This document shows, one piece after another, positions 6,882 to 55,500 of a stretch of 64,000 nucleotides of DNA. Position 1 is the stretch's first letter, and every line of letters begins with the position of its first letter. Below the pieces are notes generated by a model. That model did not search any database and was not told the DNA's origin. It worked only from the letters and a program-made list of their open reading frames with translations. The stretch covers positions 806,001-870,000 of the forward strand of contig NZ_CP083583.1 of NCBI RefSeq assembly GCF_020091585.1. The letters are read 5' to 3'. Made by a program: the position numbers and the translations under genes. Origin of the DNA: Kovacikia minuta CCNUW1. Lineage in GTDB: Bacteria; Cyanobacteriota; Cyanobacteriia; Leptolyngbyales; Leptolyngbyaceae.

Positions 6882-6987
6882 CTAGAACGCCGGTACAGAA
6901 ACCGGGTTTCTTCTCTGAGATGCTCAAGTTTTGTTGAATATCCTCACCAGAAACCCGGTTTCTCGAAATACTGTACCGATGCTCTAG
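6882..6987. mobile_element. 106-bp MITE-like element, copy 1
   Basis: Bounded by CTAG on both sides, with terminal inverted repeats GAACGCCGGTACAG and GAGCATCGGTACAG (14 bp, with mismatches) and inner arms AAACCGGGTTTCT / AGAAACCCGGTTT. Near-identical 106-bp copies lie at 12903-13008 and 16879-16984, all in the same orientation. If the duplicated target is TA, as for IS630/Tc1-type elements (inference), each insertion adds exactly 102 bp. This copy is intergenic. Confidence 0.75.
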
Positions 6988-7996: not shown

Positions 7997-10900
7997 TCAT
8001 CCATGCCGCCCACATAGACGTGCGATCGTTTGCATCAACACCGCTGGCTCTATAGGCTTTGTGAGATGGGCTTGAAATCCTGCTTGCAGTGCCCGTTGCT
8101 GATCAACTTCTGCGGCATAGGCGGTCAGGGCAATTGCCTTTGGCAACAGCAAATCTCCTTTTAGAATTGTTTTGCCTTGTTGGGGGGAACGCGCGCGAAT
8201 TTGCTGCATTAGCATGTAGCCGTCCATCTCCGCCATGCCGATATCGCTGACCAACACATCGGGAGTGAACCGATTCAAAGCCTGCAATGCCTCGCCCCCA
8301 GAAGCAACCGCCGTTACAGTTGCGCCACCTTGTTGCAACACAAATGCTTGCAGTTCGCGAGCATCTGGCTCATCGTCTACGAGCAAAACTTGAATGCCTT
8401 TTAGAGGCAAGTCTGTGCTTAGTTGAATCCGAGTTGGCTTAGGGATGATAAATGTAGCCTGTTGTATTGTCGGCAATTGCAGGATAAAGGTTGCGCCCTG
8501 CCCTTCACCCAGACTCTCTGCCCACACAGTTCCTCCATGCATTTCAACAATTTGACGGACGATCGCCAGCCCTAACCCCAAGCCGCCAAATCTGCGGGTG
8601 GTTGAGCCATCTTCTTGCCGAAAATACTCAAATACATGCGGCAAAAACTCAGGCCTGATGCCTTTGCCTGTATCGATCACTCGAATTTGCGCGAGTTGCC
8701 CCATTTGCTTGAGTTCAACGGTTACTTGTCCACCATTGGGTGTGAACTTGACGGCATTGCTAAGCAAATTCCACACCGTTTGCTGCAACCGGGCAGCATC
8801 CCCAGAAACAGGGGCAACCTCTGGAGCCAGATTTAGGACGATTCCAATGTTTTTAGCCTCTGCTGCCAATTGCACGGTTTCCAGGGCAGCAGAAATCACA
8901 AAGGTCAAACTAACGGGAGCTACCGTTAGAGAGAGTTTGCCTTGCATGATGCGGGAGATGTCGAGCAAGTCTTCGATCAACTGCGTCTGGAGTTTGGCAT
9001 TACGTTCAATTGTGTTCAACGCTTCGCGTTGACGGGCAGCATCGAGTTTGCCGTTCTGGAGTAATTGAGTCCAACCCAGGATGGGATTTAGGGGCGATCG
9101 CAACTCATGGGAAAGTACAGCAAGAAACTCATCTTTAACACGATTGGCTCGTTCAGCCGCTTCTCGTGCCGCCTGTTCTCGATGGAGGAGCTGTTCCCGT
9201 TCAGCTTCCGCTTGTTTGCGTTCGTCTTCGGCGCGCTTGCGTTCGGTAATATCGTAAGACACTGCCAGCACTGCTTCTACTTCACGGCGATCGTTGTATA
9301 GGGGAATGCCGTGTGAAATGTAGTAGTGATCGTGGCTGTGATGCTCCCAGCTAAAGGGTTCACCATCTAGTGCCTGATGGAAATATGGCTCATAGATTGC
9401 TGCCAGATTGGGATCGAGTACCTCCCAGATGGTTTTGCCCACGAAGTCTTGAGAGATAAATCCTGCTCCCTCAAGGGCTTTGCCCTCGGCCAACTGATAG
9501 CGCAACTCCCGATCCACAATAAAGACAGCCCCATTGGGTAAGTTGGCGGCAACAGTACGGAGGCGGGCTTCACTCTGATGTAATGCTGCTTGAGCATCGA
9601 TTTCACTCTGGATATCGGTGCAGGTTCCCACCCACTTCGTCACTTGTCCCACCTCATTTTTGATGGGGGTGCCGCGTACCAACTGCCAGCGCCATTCACC
9701 CGTGTGGAAGCGGAAGCGATGTTTAATCTCCACGGGTTTGCCCGTTTCCAAACTGTGTCTCCAATCACGTGCGGTGTTTGGCAGATCCTGTGGATGCACA
9801 ACATCCTGCCAGTGCCAGTCATAAAGCTGCTCTGGGGGTAAACCGATGTAATCTGCCCACTGGGCGCTCAGATAGTCCACGTTGCCGTCGGGTGTGGCTG
9901 TCCAGATTAACTGTGGAACTGTGGCGGTCAGGGTACGAAACCGCTGCTCACTTTCGCGCAGGGCAATTTCTGCCTGTTTGCGATCGCTAATGTCACGCCC
10001 TGTGCCTGCCACGGCTTCAACCGCGCCATCTGCATCTAACAGCGGCACGAAAATGTATTCATAAACTCTTGTACCCAAAGTGCCCGTGTAGGGTGTTTCG
10101 TCTTTCAAGGGTTGGCGTGTGGTCATGACCTGTTGAATTTGCTGCTGAAGGCGATCGGCTAATTTGGGTGGATAATTGAGGTCAAAAAAGTTTTTACCGA
10201 CAATTTCTGCAAATGGCTTTTGCCAGAGATCAAGCAGTGGTTGGTTGGCATAGGTAAACCGCCCTGCCAGATCAAAGGTATAAATGAGATCACGGACAGA
10301 AGATAATACCCGATCGAGGCGACGACGAGCAGCAGCCTGACGCGATCGTCCCAGTTCCACGTTTGCCGCGACCCGTGCCAATAGTTCGCGAGCACTGAAG
10401 GGTTTAACCAGGTAATCATCGGCTCCGACACTTAGCCCTTCGACTGCTGCTGCTTCTCCGGCACGGGCAGACAGCAGCAGAATGGGAATCTCGCGGGTTC
10501 GTGGGTCGCGTCGCAACTGTTTGAGCAACTCGAACCCATCCATCCCCGGCATCATCACATCGCTGAGGACTAAATCGGGAGTTGAAGCTCGGACCGCGTT
10601 GAGGGCGGTGAATCCTTCGGTAAACACCTCAACCTGATAAAACGGGCTTAAGATGCGGTGCAGATAGTTCCGCATATCGGCATTGTCATCTACAAGGAAG
10701 ATGCGAGCGGGAGAGGGGGATGGGGGGGATAGGGCAGATGGGGGAGTAATTTCTTCCCCTTCTGCCCCACCTTCCCGGTCTGTCAAAAGCCAGCTGGATG
10801 CCTCCTGGACATAGGAAGTGGCACTATTTGTTGGTTGACCCTGCCTGCCGGGATCGCGTTTCTCTAAAGCCGAGGCTGCGCCAACACCCTGTATAGCAGC

Positions 10901-12691
10901 AGGCGATGGGTGCAGCGGTAACTGGACGCGAAATGTGCTGCCCTGACCCAGGGTACTTTTGACTGCGATCGTACCGCCGTGTAGATGCACCAGTTCTTGC
11001 ACCAGCGATAGCCCAATTCCCGTGCCTTCAAATGTGCGTCCCTGTGCGCCTTCAACGCGATGAAAGCGCTCAAATAATTGGGGCAGATCGGCGTCGGGAA
11101 TGCCTGTGCCCGTGTCTTGTACTTCCAGCTCAACAACTTGGGAAAAGGCGAAGGGTGAAGGGCGAAGGGCGAAGGTATCTTCCCTTTCCCCTTTCCCCTT
11201 TCCCCTTTCCCTTTCTCCCCATCGCAAGCTCACTCGAATTTCCCCCTCAAAGGTGAACTTAAACGCATTCGAGAGTAGATTCAGCACAATCTTTTCCCAC
11301 ATATCCCGATCCACCGACACGGGTTGTGGTAGAGCGGGACAATCCACGATCAATCGCAGTCCCGCCTGCTCAATCGCAGACTGAAATAGACTGGTTAATT
11401 CAATGGTATAGATGGCGAGATCCGTGGGTTCAAAATGGGCTTGAGCGCGTCCGGCTTCAATCCGCGAAAAGTCAAGCAGGGTATTGACGAGCTTGAGTAG
11501 CCGCTGGGCGTTGCGCTGGGCGATCGTGATTTGCTCTCGTTCGACGGCAGGCAAACGGTTACTTTGCAGCACCTCTTCTAGCGGATTGAGCATCAACGTT
11601 AAAGGGGTGCGAAACTCGTGACTGACGTTCGAAAAAAAGGCAGTCTTTGCCCGATCGAGTTCGGTTAACGCTTCGGCACGCCGACGCTCTTCCTCATACG
11701 CCTGAGCATTGCGAATCGATACGGAAACCTGTCCGACTAACAACTCGTAGAACGATCGATACCCTTCATCGAGTGCCCGATTGGGATTCACGCCAGCGAT
11801 TAACACGCCCAGCGGGGCAGCTCGACCAGAGGAGGCGATCGGCATCATCAGAGCCGAGTGGACTGGCTCATTCCACGGACCTCCGGGTATGATCCTGTGG
11901 TGCTCCAAGGTTTCTACCAGAACGATTTCACCAGCCGCCGCTGGCGCAAACGACCAGAGCGGGTGGCTTGTCGTAAAGTCAATTGAATCGGGGCAAAGCG
12001 GTTGGTCTACCGTTAAGCCCACTGCCCCTTGCAGGGTGAGCGTTCTGCCGTCCGACTCTCGTAAATAAAGCAGGGCAAACGGAACATCTAAGGGATGAGC
12101 CGCGATCGCCGTCATCAAATCCTGACAGGTGTCCTGCACACTGCGCGTTTCACCCGTTTGAGCAGCCAGATCTCGCAACAGGCGTAGTCGCCGTTCTCCT
12201 AAAACTTGCTGCGTTACCTCGCTACAAACCCCCAACATTCCCACAATTTGGCCATCATCATCTTCGGCAGGGGCGTGCGACACGCTGAAGTAGGATTCTT
12301 CTCGATAGCCAGCGCGTTCTAGAACTAGCGGCAGTGCTGGAGTCCAGTTGGCGACCCCCGTTGCCATCACCCGCTGAATCATCGGTCCGAGCGTATCCCA
12401 GGCTTCTGCCAGGGTTTCCCGGATGTCCGTTCCCAGGGCTGCTGGATGCTTATCCCCAATCAACTCAGAGTAGGCATCGTTGTAAAACTGTGTGAATTGA
12501 GATCCCCACGTCAGCACCATTGGATAGCGTGAGGTGAGTAATGTTTTGACCAGCGATTTGAGGCTTTGGGACCAGGTCTGTACTGATCCAACGGGTGTTT
12601 GTGACCAATCGAGCGAGTGCATCAACTCACCCATTTCGCCACCGTTTGCAAAAATGGAGTTGGCAGCTTTGCCCTGCACTGAACCTGTCAT
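7997..12691 (-). CDS. double hybrid sensor histidine kinase (PAS/GAF/HK/REC/PAS x3/HK/REC)
   Basis: Start chosen at 12691: ATG overlaps the stop of the XRE gene (ATGA), giving 1564 residues; an upstream ATG at 12811 would run through the XRE gene. Order: PAS-like sensor (30-160), GAF (170-330), HisKA with H358 (SNVSHEFRTPL), HATPase (455-590), receiver with phospho-acceptor D711 (LVLSDVMMPGMDG), three PAS domains (about 800-1170), second HisKA (VLSHELRSPLNP), second HATPase, and C-terminal receiver (LVSDIGMAEMDG). It has no membrane helix, so it is cytosolic. Two kinase cores and two receivers in one chain point to an internal phosphorelay. The first HATPase domain carries a low-complexity insertion at residues 492-517 (GKGKGERE and similar), encoded by heptamer-like repeats at 11140-11218. 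Confidence 0.93.
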   Translation of the reverse strand: MTGSVQGKAANSIFANGGEMGELMHSLDWSQTPVGSVQTWSQSLKSLVKTLLTSRYPMVLTWGSQFTQFYNDAYSELIGDKHPAALGTDIRETLAEAWDTLGPMIQRVMATGVANWTPALPLVLERAGYREESYFSVSHAPAEDDDGQIVGMLGVCSEVTQQVLGERRLRLLRDLAAQTGETRSVQDTCQDLMTAIAAHPLDVPFALLYLRESDGRTLTLQGAVGLTVDQPLCPDSIDFTTSHPLWSFAPAAAGEIVLVETLEHHRIIPGGPWNEPVHSALMMPIASSGRAAPLGVLIAGVNPNRALDEGYRSFYELLVGQVSVSIRNAQAYEEERRRAEALTELDRAKTAFFSNVSHEFRTPLTLMLNPLEEVLQSNRLPAVEREQITIAQRNAQRLLKLVNTLLDFSRIEAGRAQAHFEPTDLAIYTIELTSLFQSAIEQAGLRLIVDCPALPQPVSVDRDMWEKIVLNLLSNAFKFTFEGEIRVSLRWGERERGKGKGEREDTFALRPSPFAFSQVVELEVQDTGTGIPDADLPQLFERFHRVEGAQGRTFEGTGIGLSLVQELVHLHGGTIAVKSTLGQGSTFRVQLPLHPSPAAIQGVGAASALEKRDPGRQGQPTNSATSYVQEASSWLLTDREGGAEGEEITPPSALSPPSPSPARIFLVDDNADMRNYLHRILSPFYQVEVFTEGFTALNAVRASTPDLVLSDVMMPGMDGFELLKQLRRDPRTREIPILLLSARAGEAAAVEGLSVGADDYLVKPFSARELLARVAANVELGRSRQAAARRRLDRVLSSVRDLIYTFDLAGRFTYANQPLLDLWQKPFAEIVGKNFFDLNYPPKLADRLQQQIQQVMTTRQPLKDETPYTGTLGTRVYEYIFVPLLDADGAVEAVAGTGRDISDRKQAEIALRESEQRFRTLTATVPQLIWTATPDGNVDYLSAQWADYIGLPPEQLYDWHWQDVVHPQDLPNTARDWRHSLETGKPVEIKHRFRFHTGEWRWQLVRGTPIKNEVGQVTKWVGTCTDIQSEIDAQAALHQSEARLRTVAANLPNGAVFIVDRELRYQLAEGKALEGAGFISQDFVGKTIWEVLDPNLAAIYEPYFHQALDGEPFSWEHHSHDHYYISHGIPLYNDRREVEAVLAVSYDITERKRAEDERKQAEAEREQLLHREQAAREAAERANRVKDEFLAVLSHELRSPLNPILGWTQLLQNGKLDAARQREALNTIERNAKLQTQLIEDLLDISRIMQGKLSLTVAPVSLTFVISAALETVQLAAEAKNIGIVLNLAPEVAPVSGDAARLQQTVWNLLSNAVKFTPNGGQVTVELKQMGQLAQIRVIDTGKGIRPEFLPHVFEYFRQEDGSTTRRFGGLGLGLAIVRQIVEMHGGTVWAESLGEGQGATFILQLPTIQQATFIIPKPTRIQLSTDLPLKGIQVLLVDDEPDARELQAFVLQQGGATVTAVASGGEALQALNRFTPDVLVSDIGMAEMDGYMLMQQIRARSPQQGKTILKGDLLLPKAIALTAYAAEVDQQRALQAGFQAHLTKPIEPAVLMQTIARLCGRHG

Positions 12692-13032
12692 CCCCACGGT
12701 TTCCCAAAATACTGAGCAAGAATATCTGTGCCCTGTTCCCCCATTTGCTGTAGGAGCAGTTCGATCTGCTTTAATGCGATCGGCATGGGCTTTGTCCGCC
12801 CGTTTTCCCAACGATTCACACTTTGAAAGGAAACTCCCAGCTTTTCGGCAAATTTGACTTGTGAGAGATCAAGCCGCTGTCGCGTTTCTCGTACCAAGGC
12901 TGCTAGAACGCCGGTACAGAAACCGGGTTTCTGCTGTGAGATGCTCAAGTTTCGTTGCATATCCTCACCAGAAACCCGGTTTCTCGAAATACTGTACCAA
13001 TGCTCTAGCTCTGACTGCTCAATTGCAGACAT
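12688..13032 (-). CDS. XRE-family HTH regulator with an in-frame 34-codon MITE insertion
   Basis: A 114-residue regulator from the ATG at 13032 (AGGGG just upstream); an ATG at 13056 lacks such a site. The C-terminal two thirds is a standard XRE helix-turn-helix: LAALVRETRQRLDLSQVKFA, then GVSFQSVNRWENGRTKP. Residues from about SEL to VLA (12904-13005) are encoded by the 106-bp repeat listed separately. Removing 102 bp restores EQSEL joined directly to AALVRETRQ, a natural N-terminus. The stop overlaps the kinase start (ATGA), so regulator and kinase form an operon and are probably partners. Whether the insertion still allows DNA binding is unknown; it lies before helix 1. Confidence 0.85.
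   Translation of the reverse strand: MSAIEQSELEHWYSISRNRVSGEDMQRNLSISQQKPGFCTGVLAALVRETRQRLDLSQVKFAEKLGVSFQSVNRWENGRTKPMPIALKQIELLLQQMGEQGTDILAQYFGKPWG
12903..13008. mobile_element. 106-bp MITE-like element, copy 2, inside the XRE gene
   Basis: Same element as at 6882-6987, with CTAG at both ends and the same orientation. Read on the minus strand in the XRE frame it has no stop codon and encodes a peptide with HWYSISRNRVSGED and ISQQKPGFCTGV. The net insertion, assuming a TA duplication, is 102 bp or 34 codons. Confidence 0.8.
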
Positions 13033-13255
13033 AGAACCCCTACTCTTAAATGGCATTTATCAGCTATAACACCTGGTATAGTTTGGTTTTATCTATCCAG
13101 GGAGGGAGAAGTAATGGTCGTCACGTTTCTGGGTAACTGCCATCGCCCCGACCTTATCTGTCTTTAACAGTCTATGCAGGGGGATGGAATCAGAGACAGA
13201 AATCGGTGGATTGAACCTCATCTATCTGGCGCTCCGATTGTTTGATTGGTATAAC

Positions 13256-16878: not shown

Positions 16879-16984
16879 CTAGAACGCCGGTACAGAAACC
16901 GGGTTTCTGCTGTGAGATGCTCAATTTTCGCTGAATATCCTCACCAGAAACCCGGTTTCTCGAAATACTGTACCGATGCTCTAG
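16879..16984. mobile_element. 106-bp MITE-like element, copy 3, overlapping the ssuB-like stop codon
   Basis: Same length, ends and orientation as copies 1 and 2. Its right-hand CTAG (16981-16984) supplies the TAG stop of the ATPase gene read on the minus strand. It fills the gap between that gene and ridA. Confidence 0.78.
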
Positions 16985-17784
16985 AGATCGGCGGTTACAC
17001 CTTCCCGATCGAGGGCGGCAATTTCAGCGGCGGTGAATTCACCCAAAACGGCTTCTCGCTCCAGGTGATGCCGCAGATGCGATCGAACATCCTGTAATCG
17101 AGGGTCTTCCGAATTACGGGGGCGATCGATGGCAATGGGGATCACCTCAATCATGCGTCCGGGGCTACCCGACATCAGCACCACCTGATCCGCGAGCATC
17201 AGTGCCTCATCCAGGTCATGGGTCACCATCGTAATGGTGGCTTGAGCATGGTGCCACATCGCCAGCAAATAGCGCTGCATCACCCGTCGGGTCTGGTAAT
17301 CGAGGGAGGAGAAGGGTTCATCCAGCAGTAACACCTGGGGGTTCATCACGAGGGCGCGGGCGATCGCCACCCGTTGCCGCATGCCACCGCTCAGCTCGCG
17401 GGGCAATTTGTTGGCATGTTCGATGAGTCCCACATCCGCCAATAACTTGCTCGCCCGTAAGCGACGTGTAGCACGCTTCACGCCCTGCGCCCGTAGACCA
17501 AAGGCGACATTATCGCGCACGGTCATCCATTCAAACAGATTGTGGTGCTGAAAGACGATCGCGGTTTCGGGACCGGGGCGGGTCAGCCGTCTTCCTCCCA
17601 GCAACACCTGTCCAGTTGTTGGCGGAATCAGTCCCGCCGCAATTTCGAGTAGGGTAGTCTTGCCGCAGCCCGATGGACCAATCAAAACCGTAAACGATCC
17701 GGCTGGAATCGTCAGGTTCACATCGGCAACAGCAGCCCGATCGCCATACAGTTTGGTGATGTTTTGGAACTGAAGTTCAGCCAC
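16981..17784 (-). CDS. ssuB: ABC transporter ATP-binding protein, SsuB/TauB/NrtD type
   Basis: The energy-coupling subunit of a sulfonate/nitrate/taurine-class importer, 267 residues. Walker A GPSGCGKTT is at 36-44, the Q-loop FQHHNLF near 78, the signature LSGGMRQR at 131-138, Walker B VLLLDEP at 151-157 with a D-loop SSLD, and the switch His in MVTHDLDEA. Eight bases of overlap link it to the permease gene upstream. Substrate choice within this transporter class cannot be read from the ATPase; the neighbouring organosulfur genes favour sulfonates. The stop codon TAG lies in a 106-bp repeat. Confidence 0.9.
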   Translation of the reverse strand: MAELQFQNITKLYGDRAAVADVNLTIPAGSFTVLIGPSGCGKTTLLEIAAGLIPPTTGQVLLGGRRLTRPGPETAIVFQHHNLFEWMTVRDNVAFGLRAQGVKRATRRLRASKLLADVGLIEHANKLPRELSGGMRQRVAIARALVMNPQVLLLDEPFSSLDYQTRRVMQRYLLAMWHHAQATITMVTHDLDEALMLADQVVLMSGSPGRMIEVIPIAIDRPRNSEDPRLQDVRSHLRHHLEREAVLGEFTAAEIAALDREGVTADL

Positions 17785-18823: not shown

Positions 18824-19165
18824 GGCGTGTTTTAAAGCCTTCGGGTTCGTTTCCTTGACCCTTGGTGATCCCCCTAAATCCCCCTTAAAAAGGGGAACTT
18901 TGAATGGTTTGGCTCCCCCTTTTTAAGGCTACGGTGTACACACAAGTCGATCGCTGATTCGTTTTCCGAAAACCTGATCCTCCACAACCTTGATTTCTCG
19001 TTGCCGGTTCTCAATAAGCCGAGATTATTGAGATTTCAGCCAATTTCCAAAGTTGAGGCAGAGCAAGGGTTTCAGGACTTGTGTTCACAGATTTCCGACT
19101 TGTGTGTACACGGTAGCTTTTTAAGGAGGGTTGGGGAGGATCAAGGGTTTTAAAGCAGACACTAG
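18820..19165. mobile_element. 346-bp repeat, copy A (outer element interrupted by a 188-bp inner element)
   Basis: The ends are CTAGGGCGTGTTTTAAAGCC and its imperfect complement closing in CTAG. The body carries GATCCCCCTAAATCCCCC and GGTTGGGGAGGATC as inner arms. An uninterrupted 149-bp version lies at 51435-51583 and an interrupted copy B at 22630-22977. The closing CTAG (19162-19165) provides the TAG stop codon of the binding-protein gene on the minus strand. Confidence 0.75.
18929..19116. mobile_element. 188-bp inner element, copy A
   Basis: Ends CTACGGTGTACACACAAGTCG and, inverted, CTACCGTGTACACACAAGTCG: 21-bp terminal repeats with one mismatch. It is flanked on both sides by CTTTTTAAGG, a 9-10 bp target duplication, which shows transposition into the outer repeat. 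By eye it is identical to the reverse complement of 22740-22927. It has no coding capacity; the size and ends suggest a MITE moved by an IS4-like transposase (inference). Confidence 0.75.
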
Positions 19166-22633: not shown

Positions 22634-22977
22634 GGCGTGTTTTAAAACCTTCGGGTTCGTTTCCTTGACGCTTGGTAATCCCCCTAGATCTCCCTTTTCA
22701 AGGGGGACTTTGAATGGTTTGGCTCCCTCCTTTTTAAGGCTACCGTGTACACACAAGTCGGAAATCTGTGAACACAAGTCCTGAAACCCTTGCTCTGCCT
22801 CAACTTTGGAAATTGGCTGAAATCTCAATAATCTCGGCTTATTGAGAACCGGCAACGAGAAATCAAGGTTGTGGAGGATCAGGTTTTCGGAAAACGAATC
22901 AGCGATCGACTTGTGTGTACACCGTAGCCTTTTTAAGGAGGGTTGGGGAGGATCAAGGGCTTTAAAACATTGTCTAG
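22630..22977. mobile_element. 348-bp repeat, copy B (outer element with 188-bp inner element)
   Basis: Same outer sequence and orientation as 18820-19165, from CTAGGGCGTGTTTTAAAACC to a closing CTAG. The left CTAG contains the sfnB stop codon. The inner element occupies 22740-22927. Confidence 0.75.
22740..22927. mobile_element. 188-bp inner element, copy B, inverted relative to copy A
   Basis: Reads CTACCGTGTACACACAAGTCGG at its left end, which is the right end of copy A reversed; as far as I can follow by eye the whole 188 bp is the exact reverse complement of copy A. It interrupts the outer repeat at the same CCTTTTTAAGG site, duplicated on both sides. Confidence 0.75.
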
Positions 22978-51429: not shown

Positions 51430-51434
51430 ATCTT

Positions 51435-51583
51435 CTAGGGCGTGCTTTAAAACCTTCGGGTTCGTTTCCTTGACGCTTGGTGATCCCCCTAAATCCCCCT
51501 TAAAAAGGGGGACTTTGAATGGTTTGGCTCCCTCCTTTTTAAGGAAGGTTGGGGAGGATCAAGGGTTTTAAAACACTGCTTAG
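51435..51583. mobile_element. 149-bp repeat, copy C (uninterrupted outer element)
   Basis: Begins CTAGGGCGTGCTTTAAAACC six bases after the stop of the small gene and ends TTTTAAAACACTGCTTAG. It contains GATCCCCCTAAATCCCCC and GGTTGGGGAGGATC as inner arms and a single CTTTTTAAGG. It shows what copies A and B looked like before the 188-bp element entered. A further inverted-type patch (GAAGGAGGGTGAACAGGTGGGAG) lies at 51617-51640. Confidence 0.75.
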
Positions 51584-51678
51584 TGTTTTGCCAGGGCGCT
51601 CATGGGTAATGCGCTGAAGGGAAGGAGGGTGAACAGGTGGGAGAGTACGAAAACTTAACTTAGAAGGAGAAAGCAACC

Positions 51679-52527: not shown

Positions 52528-55500
52528 GACCCTGTATCTGTTTCATGGAGGTCGGTATTGGCCCCAGGATGGGTCTCACCCCCCCCTCAACTTAACCGAT
52601 ATTCCAGGTTGGCCCAAGAGTGTAGCGAATTGGGCGGATGGCGTGATTGATGCGGTGTCTGTTCCGTCTAATCCCATGATGTTTGGGCAAATCACATTGC
52701 AACGCGGGAATGAGAGCCTTAATCTGGAATTTAACGGGCGGGGGTTTCAGGTGGTTGGTAGTCCCGCACCCCTGCCTCCCCAGGCGCTGGTTAACGCAGG
52801 TGCAGTCGCAACGGTGGGGAATAATCTTATCTTTTTCTACTACAGCGGCGTGCAGGTTGTGCAAGTGGGAACGAATGACATTGACCCGCATTATCTTCCA
52901 ACCGTGCACCAAAACTGGCCCGCAACCTGGCATCCGGTACTGAACCATGCCCCCAGTGGTCGGATGGGGAACCTGTGGGTGGCAACCAAAGATGGCAACT
53001 TTGTCCATCACAATGGCGAAAACTGGAGCCTGGCGCTGCCGGATGCTCAAGCGACCTCGGTTTCCGTGGGGAACGACAACAGCGTTTGGACGGCACACCA
53101 CAGTGCAACAGCTACCTTTCCCCATGTGTATGCCGTGGGAGATCCCGGCAATGGCATCCCCGGCTTGTTTGACCTGAGTAATGGTAGCGATCGCAGTTTT
53201 GCCTTTGACTACGACAGTAGTGGCAAGCAGGATCATCTGGTCTTCTACCGCACCGGCAATGGCACCGCTGGGACGGGCAAGATTGTCATTGTCAAAAATA
53301 ATGGGGATGGCTCCTTCACCCAGGTTTATCCGGCTCCAGGTACTTCCCAGAGTGCGATCGGTGGGTACAGCTTTGACGAACAAGGAACCCCACTGTCTGG
53401 ACAACCCGGCAATCTCGGCTTTGCCTTTGACTACGATGGCAGCGGTAAGCAAGATCATCTCGTCTTTTACCGTCCGGGTACAGGAGTAATCTCGATTCTC
53501 AAAAATCAAGGCGGCACTTTTACCCAGGTCTATCCACCATCAGGAGGGGGGACTGGGATTGGCGGCTACGACCTGAGCAATTCTGCCGATCGCGCCTTTG
53601 CCTTTGACTACAATGGCAGCGGCAAACAGGATCATCTCGTCCTCTATCGTCCGGGCAGGGGAATAATCTATATCATCAAGAATCAGAGCGGCACTTTTAC
53701 TCCGGTCTATCAGACTGGATCTGTACCCAACGGCATTGGCGGTTATGACCTACAAGAACCCCAAGACAAGGGTTTTGCCTACGACTACGATGGCACAGGT
53801 AAGCTCGATCACCTCGTCTTCTACCGTCCTGGTGTGGGAGCGATCTTTATCCTGAAGAACAACAGCGGCAGCTTTACCACTGTCTATAAGCAAGTAGACC
53901 CAGGCAATGGCCAACAGGGTGGCGGCATTGGTGACTTTGCCCTAACGGGTCAGTACGATCAAGGCTTTGCCTTCGACTACAAGGGCACCGGCAAACAAAA
54001 TTATCTTGTTTTCTACAGCCCCGGTACTGGCAAAATCTCTATTTTGCAGAATTTCAATGGCAACTTTTTGAATGTCTATCCCCAGGGGCAGCAAACTGGT
54101 GGCATTGGCGGCTATGACCTGGCTGGCACGATGGATCTGGGGTTTAGCTTTGATGCCACTGGCAGCGGTAACCAAAACGGCTTAGTCTTCTACCGTCCTG
54201 GCACAGGAGCGATCTTTATCCTGAAAACGGCGTTAAATTACACCCCCATCCTGGGCGGCTGGGCGAATGGCAGTTTCACAGAGCAGCCCCAGCCCGCAGG
54301 GGGCATCAATCAGGTGTCCGTTGGTGATGCGTCAAAGGTGTGGATACGCGACGGGCAAAACAACGTGATGCAGTACGACAGCCAGAATCAACAATATAGC
54401 CCTCCCAACACTCAGGTCGGTCAGGCTGCCCATATTGGGGCGAACAACGATGGCACCCTGTGGCACTGCAACAACACGCCTGATGCCCATCGGCTCGTAT
54501 CTGAAGCAACTGCCCCTTCGGAACAGTTGACGGTGGATGCGGCAGTGACCAGCGTGCAGCGAGTTGCCACCACGGGGTTTGGTTCTTCCCACTGTTTGGC
54601 GCAATACAGCGATGGCAGCCAGGGCATTTATCGCTACGATTCGCCCTATGTGTTCAAAACCTCAAATGCCTACGGAAACGCAACGGGAATCATTTCAGGC
54701 TTTGGCAAAGTGTATGTGGTGCCACAGTTGCCAAATTCTGGGAATTTGAAAGATGGAATTGTTGCATTAGATGTGCATACGGGTGAGGAACTGGCAACCT
54801 ATCCCACACCTGCAATGCCAGGGTATTACTACCAAAATCCTGTCCTTGACCCTGTTCACGAGTTAGTGTACGTAGTATCGAGCCGTTATGATGATGCACC
54901 TTCAGGGCACTCACAACTGCTTGCATTGGATGCCCACACGTTGACTTTACAGTGGTCATACTCAACTCAAAACAATTTTGAGTCGGCACCGGTGCTTACA
55001 GGGACTCAACTCTGTATTGGGGATAGCACGGGTTCAGTAGAAGCAGTAAATGTTTATATGTTTGATACAAATGCAGTGCTCAAGGCTGTTGCTGCTGGTC
55101 AATCGCCTCAACCCCTTTGGGTACAATCCCTCCAAGGAACTGAAGTAGCAGTTACCCCAACGATCGTTAGTAATCGGGTTTATGTAGCAGTAGCGAATTC
55201 AGAGGTTGGTGCCAATCATCTCGTTATTTGTGATGCTACCAATGGAACCGTCCAAAGTACGCAACCGATAGGAGCAGGAACTTATTCTCGACTGAAGGCA
55301 ACGGTTGTTACAAATTCAGCACTTACAGACTCTGATCTAGAGGTCTATATTCCTGTTAATTCGGGAATATACGTTGTTCGTCCGTTTACCGACCAAAGTC
55401 CTGCTTTCTTCAGTTTGACAGATAAAGCTACCGTCACGAGTGGTGTCACTTACGACGATGGAACACGGGTGGGAGTTTTGTCCAGCCAAGGGGCAGCTAA

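Follow-up and report, generated by a model that had tools for sequence, protein, structure and literature searches.

An in-frame insertion of a CTAG-duplicating MITE in an XRE regulator gene of the cyanobacterium Kovacikia minuta CCNUW1

The window, that is, the whole stretch of 64,000 nt that was analysed, corresponds to C2:806001-870000 of the K. minuta CCNUW1 genome, which comprises 8.56 Mb in 3 contigs. On its reverse strand lies a gene for an XRE regulator, present in the ORF list as 12688-13056 (122 aa). Orthology places the native start at ATG 13032, the additional MPFKSRGS of the 122-aa ORF being unconserved as a start, so the gene spans 12688..13032 and the proteins have 80 aa (empty form) and 114 aa (filled form). 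The neighbouring gene on the same strand (7997..12691) had been described as encoding a double hybrid kinase in an operon with the regulator. This description is supported: Pfam matches to two HisKA/HATPase and two receiver domains were obtained, and the kinase ATG at 12691 overlaps the XRE stop codon as ATGA. The same overlap is seen in three of the four syntenic orthologues (L172-L174); in L175, the XRE stop falls a few bases earlier. On the other side of the XRE gene, TATACCAGGTGTTATA (13065..13080, reverse strand) is a candidate operator. Near-palindromes resembling TATACCAGGTGGTATA were observed at a distance of 44-51 nt upstream of the XRE start in the window (13065-13080) and in 11 of the 20 orthologous loci scanned (L172-L178, L180-L182 and L185), and may represent an autoregulatory operator.

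The element of interest is a copy of a MITE situated within the XRE gene at 12903..13008, on the reverse strand. It is 106 nt long including both CTAG duplications (12903..12906 and 13005..13008), and the net insertion is 102 nt, or 34 codons. The original prediction had given exactly these boundaries, with a frame that remains open through the repeat, and both points were confirmed. The predicted net gain is also correct, and would be the same with a 2-bp or a 4-bp duplication. The insertion site is a CTAG overlapping codon 9, and removal of the element joins MSAIEQSEL to AALVRETRQ, which includes the junction of EQSEL with AALVRETRQ anticipated earlier. The HTH_3 match of the protein (12751..12894, reverse strand) follows the insert and is intact. 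The XRE copy differs by 2 nt from its nearest relatives. Two other copies are present in the window, both on the reverse strand. The one at 6882..6987 is outside the listed ORFs of at least 100 aa, and the one at 16879..16984 lies on the TAG stop codon (16981-16984) of an ABC ATPase ORF (16981-17784).

The exact two-palindrome pattern of the element occurs in 99 copies genome-wide, versus 0 for a reversed control pattern, and the repeat is thus far from chance. The same 72-nt core length was found in 95 of these 99 copies. A looser end pattern identified 135 places, 100 of them among the matches listed. The peptide encoded by the element in the XRE frame gave 134 matches in the genome and the peptide from the opposite strand gave 150; neither peptide has a Pfam match. 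Of 58 genomes, three, one of them K. minuta itself, gave matches to the MITE DNA, and K. minuta alone gave matches to the element peptide. No MITE match was found in plasmids, nor was the exact pattern found in viral contigs.

To define the ends of the element, flanks were collected for 121 located copies. Both ends were CTAG in 99 of these, 97 of which were 106 nt in length. The remaining 22 copies comprised 19 with ends that were unlike or displaced and three with matching altered ends (ATAG/ATAG, CTAA/CTAA and TTAG/TTAG). That each of these three has an identical altered tetranucleotide at its two ends, which a 2-bp duplication would not predict, argues for a duplication of 4 bp with a YTAR-like target. 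The TA duplication that had been proposed for the XRE copy is therefore rejected in favour of CTAG. A YTAR 4-bp target is a trait of the IS5 group; CTAG, TTAG and CTAA conform to it, and the single ATAG departs from it.

The element has the general properties of a MITE. It is short, multi-copy and devoid of a transposase gene, it is flanked by a target-site duplication, and it has terminal inverted repeats (GAGCATCGGTACAG and GAACGCCGGTACAG); its ends, with the CTAG duplications, are GARCNNNGGTACAG. Two scans with end patterns, performed to find a partner insertion sequence, yielded eight places and one place (L340), respectively, and no insertion sequence was recognized among the eight. One of these eight (L283) is a MITE-like stretch that encloses other DNA. 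The comparison of transposase families covered PF13340, for which 31 matches were obtained. The two groups of these with resolved left ends (15 and 8 loci) were unlike the MITE, and a search for MITE ends across L310-L339 revealed only one ordinary MITE copy. Fifteen of the PF13340 loci (L310-L324) are near-identical insertion sequences with 942 nt in common and with the ends TATAGAACCCATTT.

The insert-free, joined XRE protein was then scanned against genome contigs of 84,980 species, and 80 loci were retained; the relatives searched were all from outside the genus. The best of the 80, from Nodosilinea sp. FACHB-131, matched at 95% over residues 1-78. The 34 residues were missing from all 12 of the XRE orthologues that were aligned, which were drawn from the first 14 loci. 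Twenty loci were compared as DNA, and in four of them (L172-L175, from Nodosilinea sp. FACHB-131, Cyanobacteria bacterium FACHB-471, Oculatella sp. LEGE 06141 and Drouetiella hepatica), the upstream region, the XRE gene and the kinase gene all match at 75-89% identity and the element is absent. The empty site reads CTAG in L179, L180 and L185, and CTGG in L172-L174. The insertion, its target duplication, its open frame and the empty site can thus be read directly from the DNA, as can the recurrence of the element in other genes.

The same peptide is indeed found in other proteins of the genome, and this, with the open frame and the empty-site orthologues, bears out the proposal that the element can act as a protein-coding insertion. 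A 1970-aa protein, in which Pkinase, AAA_16, GAF and HATPase domains are found, contains the element in frame from residue 1264. An insert-free query derived from this kinase matched sequences in 17 of 22 other genomes, as well as paralogues in its own; the best homologues matched it unbroken, and the protein's own copy matched it in two pieces. Ten loci were compared residue by residue, and only the 1970-aa protein itself contains the insert, in a region where the other homologues vary in length. The insert in a Uma2 protein lies near the end of the domain, which scored 80.2 bits filled and 89.3 bits without the insert. The domain is complete in a DUF2141 protein, in which the insert follows codon 11, and in a DUF952 protein, in which the insert follows the domain and has the opposite orientation. 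In the gene for an APS kinase (L076, phase 0), the element is situated at the gene end, and the protein is extended and then stopped inside the element. Two fragments of mobile genes, IS110 and a group II intron maturase, also carry the element in frame. Two tandem copies of the MITE (L035, C1:509503-509709) are jointly open in a 381-aa ORF, which continues into a stretch that we read as signal-peptide-like and which has no Pfam match.

The recurrence of in-frame insertions can be explained by the phase of the target. In phase 0 (CTA|G), the clean 106-nt copies are stop-free in 91 of 97 cases in one orientation and in 94 of 97 in the other. The corresponding values for phase 1 are 0 of 97 and 19 of 97, and in phase 2 the CTAG itself supplies a TAG stop. 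Among 500 sampled CTAG sites, 181 were gene-internal, and 134 of these were in phase 0, so that the target rule alone would allow about three quarters of gene-internal hits to keep the frame. ORFs of at least 100 aa were restored across a copy in 12 open phase-0 frames (from 11 copies) and 9 phase-1 frames; the XRE gene is below this length cut and so is outside these counts. A Pfam match was present in six of the 12 phase-0 ORFs and in one of the nine phase-1 ORFs (PrsW-like, hit at codon 21, near the start). This tally indicates that in-frame cases are not above the 74% expected from the target phase.

The genomic distribution of the element was determined by applying one coding-score rule to the 99 clean copies and to 500 control CTAG sites, the 22 copies that lack the pair of CTAG ends being left out. 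It is apparent that the copies avoid gene interiors (1/99, versus 181/500 sites; p 5e-16) and favour TAG stop codons (28/99 versus 48/500; p 3e-6). The single gene-internal copy is an undercount, as the rule missed the sites in the XRE and 1970-aa kinase genes, but the same rule served the controls. Unclassified or non-coding positions accounted for 61/99 copies and 209/500 sites (p 4e-4), and the class 'coding on one side' for 9/99 and 62/500. When the comparison was made with non-coding sites only, the enrichment at stop codons was mild (28/89 versus 48/257; p 0.017). For 20 of the 121 copies, the duplicated TAG is precisely where an ORF of at least 100 aa terminates. An insertion on such a stop (C-TAG target) leaves the protein unchanged.

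A relative of the MITE was found in genome G025 (L061, L063, L065, L067 and L252-L277). It resembles the MITE in its ends and in its CTAG target, but its interior has diverged and its net length breaks the frame (101 nt in eight of the nine copies with a printed length, and 100 nt in the other). Seven of its 25 clean copies are at stop codons and two are in phase 1 of an ORF; none of the 25 (five of the 30 copies were skipped) is in phase 0 of an ORF of at least 100 aa.

The explanation that we favour, and consider very probable, is a recent and tolerated insertion of the CTAG-targeting MITE, by which the XRE regulator has gained 34 sense codons ahead of an intact HTH domain. A non-autonomous element of this type would have transposed recently into the CTAG at XRE codon 9, and transposition would have duplicated the four bases and added the 34 sense codons. 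The insert would be tolerated by virtue of a length that, net of the duplication, is a multiple of three, together with the lack of stop codons on both strands at CTA|G. We infer that the HTH domain and the coupling with the kinase survive because the element is frame-neutral and stop-free in the commoner phase. Ribosomes would presumably translate through the insert, and the resulting arm would be of little or no use. In an AlphaFold2 model of the filled protein, built from 13 sequences, none of the others covering the insert, block means of the confidence score were 51-63 for residues 1-40 and 82-92 for residues 41-110. The added arm, ahead of the HTH domain, probably has little structure, and a neutral or mildly disturbing effect is more likely than a useful one.

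The main effect of the insertion may be exerted on the RNA. In the XRE sense, the element RNA folds to –51.8 kcal/mol (shuffles –24.4; z –8.6), and the hairpin could lower translation or be cut by RNase III, so that the amounts of XRE and of the kinase coupled to it through ATGA would both fall. Cleavage by RNase III has been proposed for NEMIS and hypothesized for the hairpins of QMITE2 (PMC2229807, PMC5896051). On the other hand, the hairpin begins downstream of the start codon (24 nt past its first base). This explanation is possible, if somewhat doubtful, and it is compatible with a tolerated insertion, although an insertion whose hairpin lowers expression would not be neutral. The RNA hairpin may be of greater consequence than the added peptide.

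Translation might also restart within the element, GGTGAGGATATG providing a new start, from which a regulator of 90 aa with a short leader of new sequence would be made. We take part of GGTGAGGATATG to be a ribosome site, and the variant with this ATG, carried by 23 of 121 copies, is present in both the XRE and the DUF2141 copies, which are near gene starts. Two cases are few, however; the native ATG and the upstream region are conserved with the orthologues, and the ATG of the element sits in the upper stem of the hairpin, all of which render a restart unlikely. A broader reading would make the MITE family a frame-neutral 34-codon cassette. CTAG leaves two coding phases, of which the commoner is open either way, so that most gene-internal hits would lengthen proteins, and some regulators (XRE and the 1970-aa kinase) would now work differently. 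As a whole, we regard this broader reading as distinctly improbable.

Selection was assessed from 85 distinct changes in 114 copies. In each of the two open frames, four changes make stops, against expectations of 4.19 and 3.14, respectively; such changes are not depleted, and selection on the reading frame of the element is rejected. This result bears on the suggestion that the 34-residue arm confers a new function on the regulator that has been kept by selection. The intact frame and HTH domain would permit such a function, but the XRE copy is only 2 nt from its nearest relatives and model confidence for the arm is low, and we think it quite improbable. For the same reasons, tolerance and use account for the data equally well, and of the N-terminal segment envisaged in the original prediction, the gain of 34 codons stands, and a functional role for it is hypothetical.

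Selection of the whole family as a protein-coding cassette is less credible still. Phase 0 is open on both strands, one core length prevails (95 of the 99 exact-pattern copies) and the frame-breaking relative in G025 lacks phase-0 insertions in ORFs of at least 100 aa. However, near-palindromy couples the two strands, the G025 comparison spans 25 copies, stop-making changes are undepleted and gene interiors are avoided, and the probability that we assign to such selection is very low. An assembly artefact or a dead gene, in favour of which nothing was found, is very improbable in view of the clean duplication, the intact frame, the conserved neighbour arrangement and the many copies.

The tolerated insertion favoured here has several parallels. 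Rickettsia palindromic elements (RPEs) are palindromic repeats of 105-146 bp that have been described in frame in unrelated protein genes, to which they add a peptide (PMC2229807, PMC10969869), and the product of a filled gene, Rickettsia gmk, was reported to be made and active (PMC2229807). By these descriptions, the RPE and the Kovacikia MITE are alike in being short, palindromic, in frame and peptide-adding, and a further RPE trait was also found here, namely that unrelated protein genes carry the element in frame while homologues have an empty site. However, the RPE belongs to another phylum, and its duplication is entered as a question mark in the table of PMC2229807, whereas CTAG is clear in the present case. 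MITEPsy1 of Pseudomonas syringae, of 100 nt, is reported to duplicate CTAG or YTAA (PMC3189936), and IS5 to duplicate Py-T-A-Pu, most often CTAG (PMC5493358). Both share the CTAG duplication with this MITE, but their inverted repeats are different, and no IS5-like element with the MITE ends was detected here among the eight places from the first end-pattern scan or in the PF13340 groups with resolved left ends. Nowhere in its text does the MITEPsy1 paper use 'in frame', 'in-frame' or 'fusion' (PMC3189936).

In-frame fusions of MITEs are already known, according to accounts of Rickettsia, enterobacteria, Neisseria and Coxiella (PMC10969869, PMC2229807, PMC2759123, PMC5896051). ERIC/RU-1, RU-2, RU-3, the 107-bp Correia element and the Coxiella QMITE differ from this MITE in sequence and host, and the enterobacterial ERIC/RU elements are described as having TA duplications or termini, in contrast to CTAG. 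Among cyanobacteria, 15 of 147 MITEs in Anabaena sp. 90 were described in disrupted ORFs, as makers of pseudogenes (PMC3542288). Those elements are likewise multi-copy, with some in genes, but in the present case the frames stay open. MITEs with ORFs in Anabaena 7120 are named in a review (PMC10969869). GTAG REPs are reported often to supply, with their ends, the TAG that stops an adjacent ORF, and some to be located within ORFs (PMC3733652), but they are 20-40 bp in length and linked to tyrosine transposases, whereas the present element is a CTAG-duplicating MITE. The titles and abstract openings returned by a partial literature search included no frame-keeping, CTAG-targeting cyanobacterial MITE.

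With these findings, a cyanobacterium joins Rickettsia in having proteins lengthened by palindromic elements, and here the target rule is defined. From that rule it becomes possible to test how often a given mobile element that hits genes at random would lengthen a protein rather than break it, and the XRE gene, with its close empty orthologues and candidate operator, would be a compact system for measuring the effect of the added arm. The window also contains repeats of other kinds. Inverted arms of 206 nt, 98% complementary and 3.6 kb apart, are present at 18915-19120 and 22736-22941, and the repeat family that neighbours them is also found near 51434-51587. Diverged direct repeats, with a spacing of mostly 177 nt, occupy 53171-54225.
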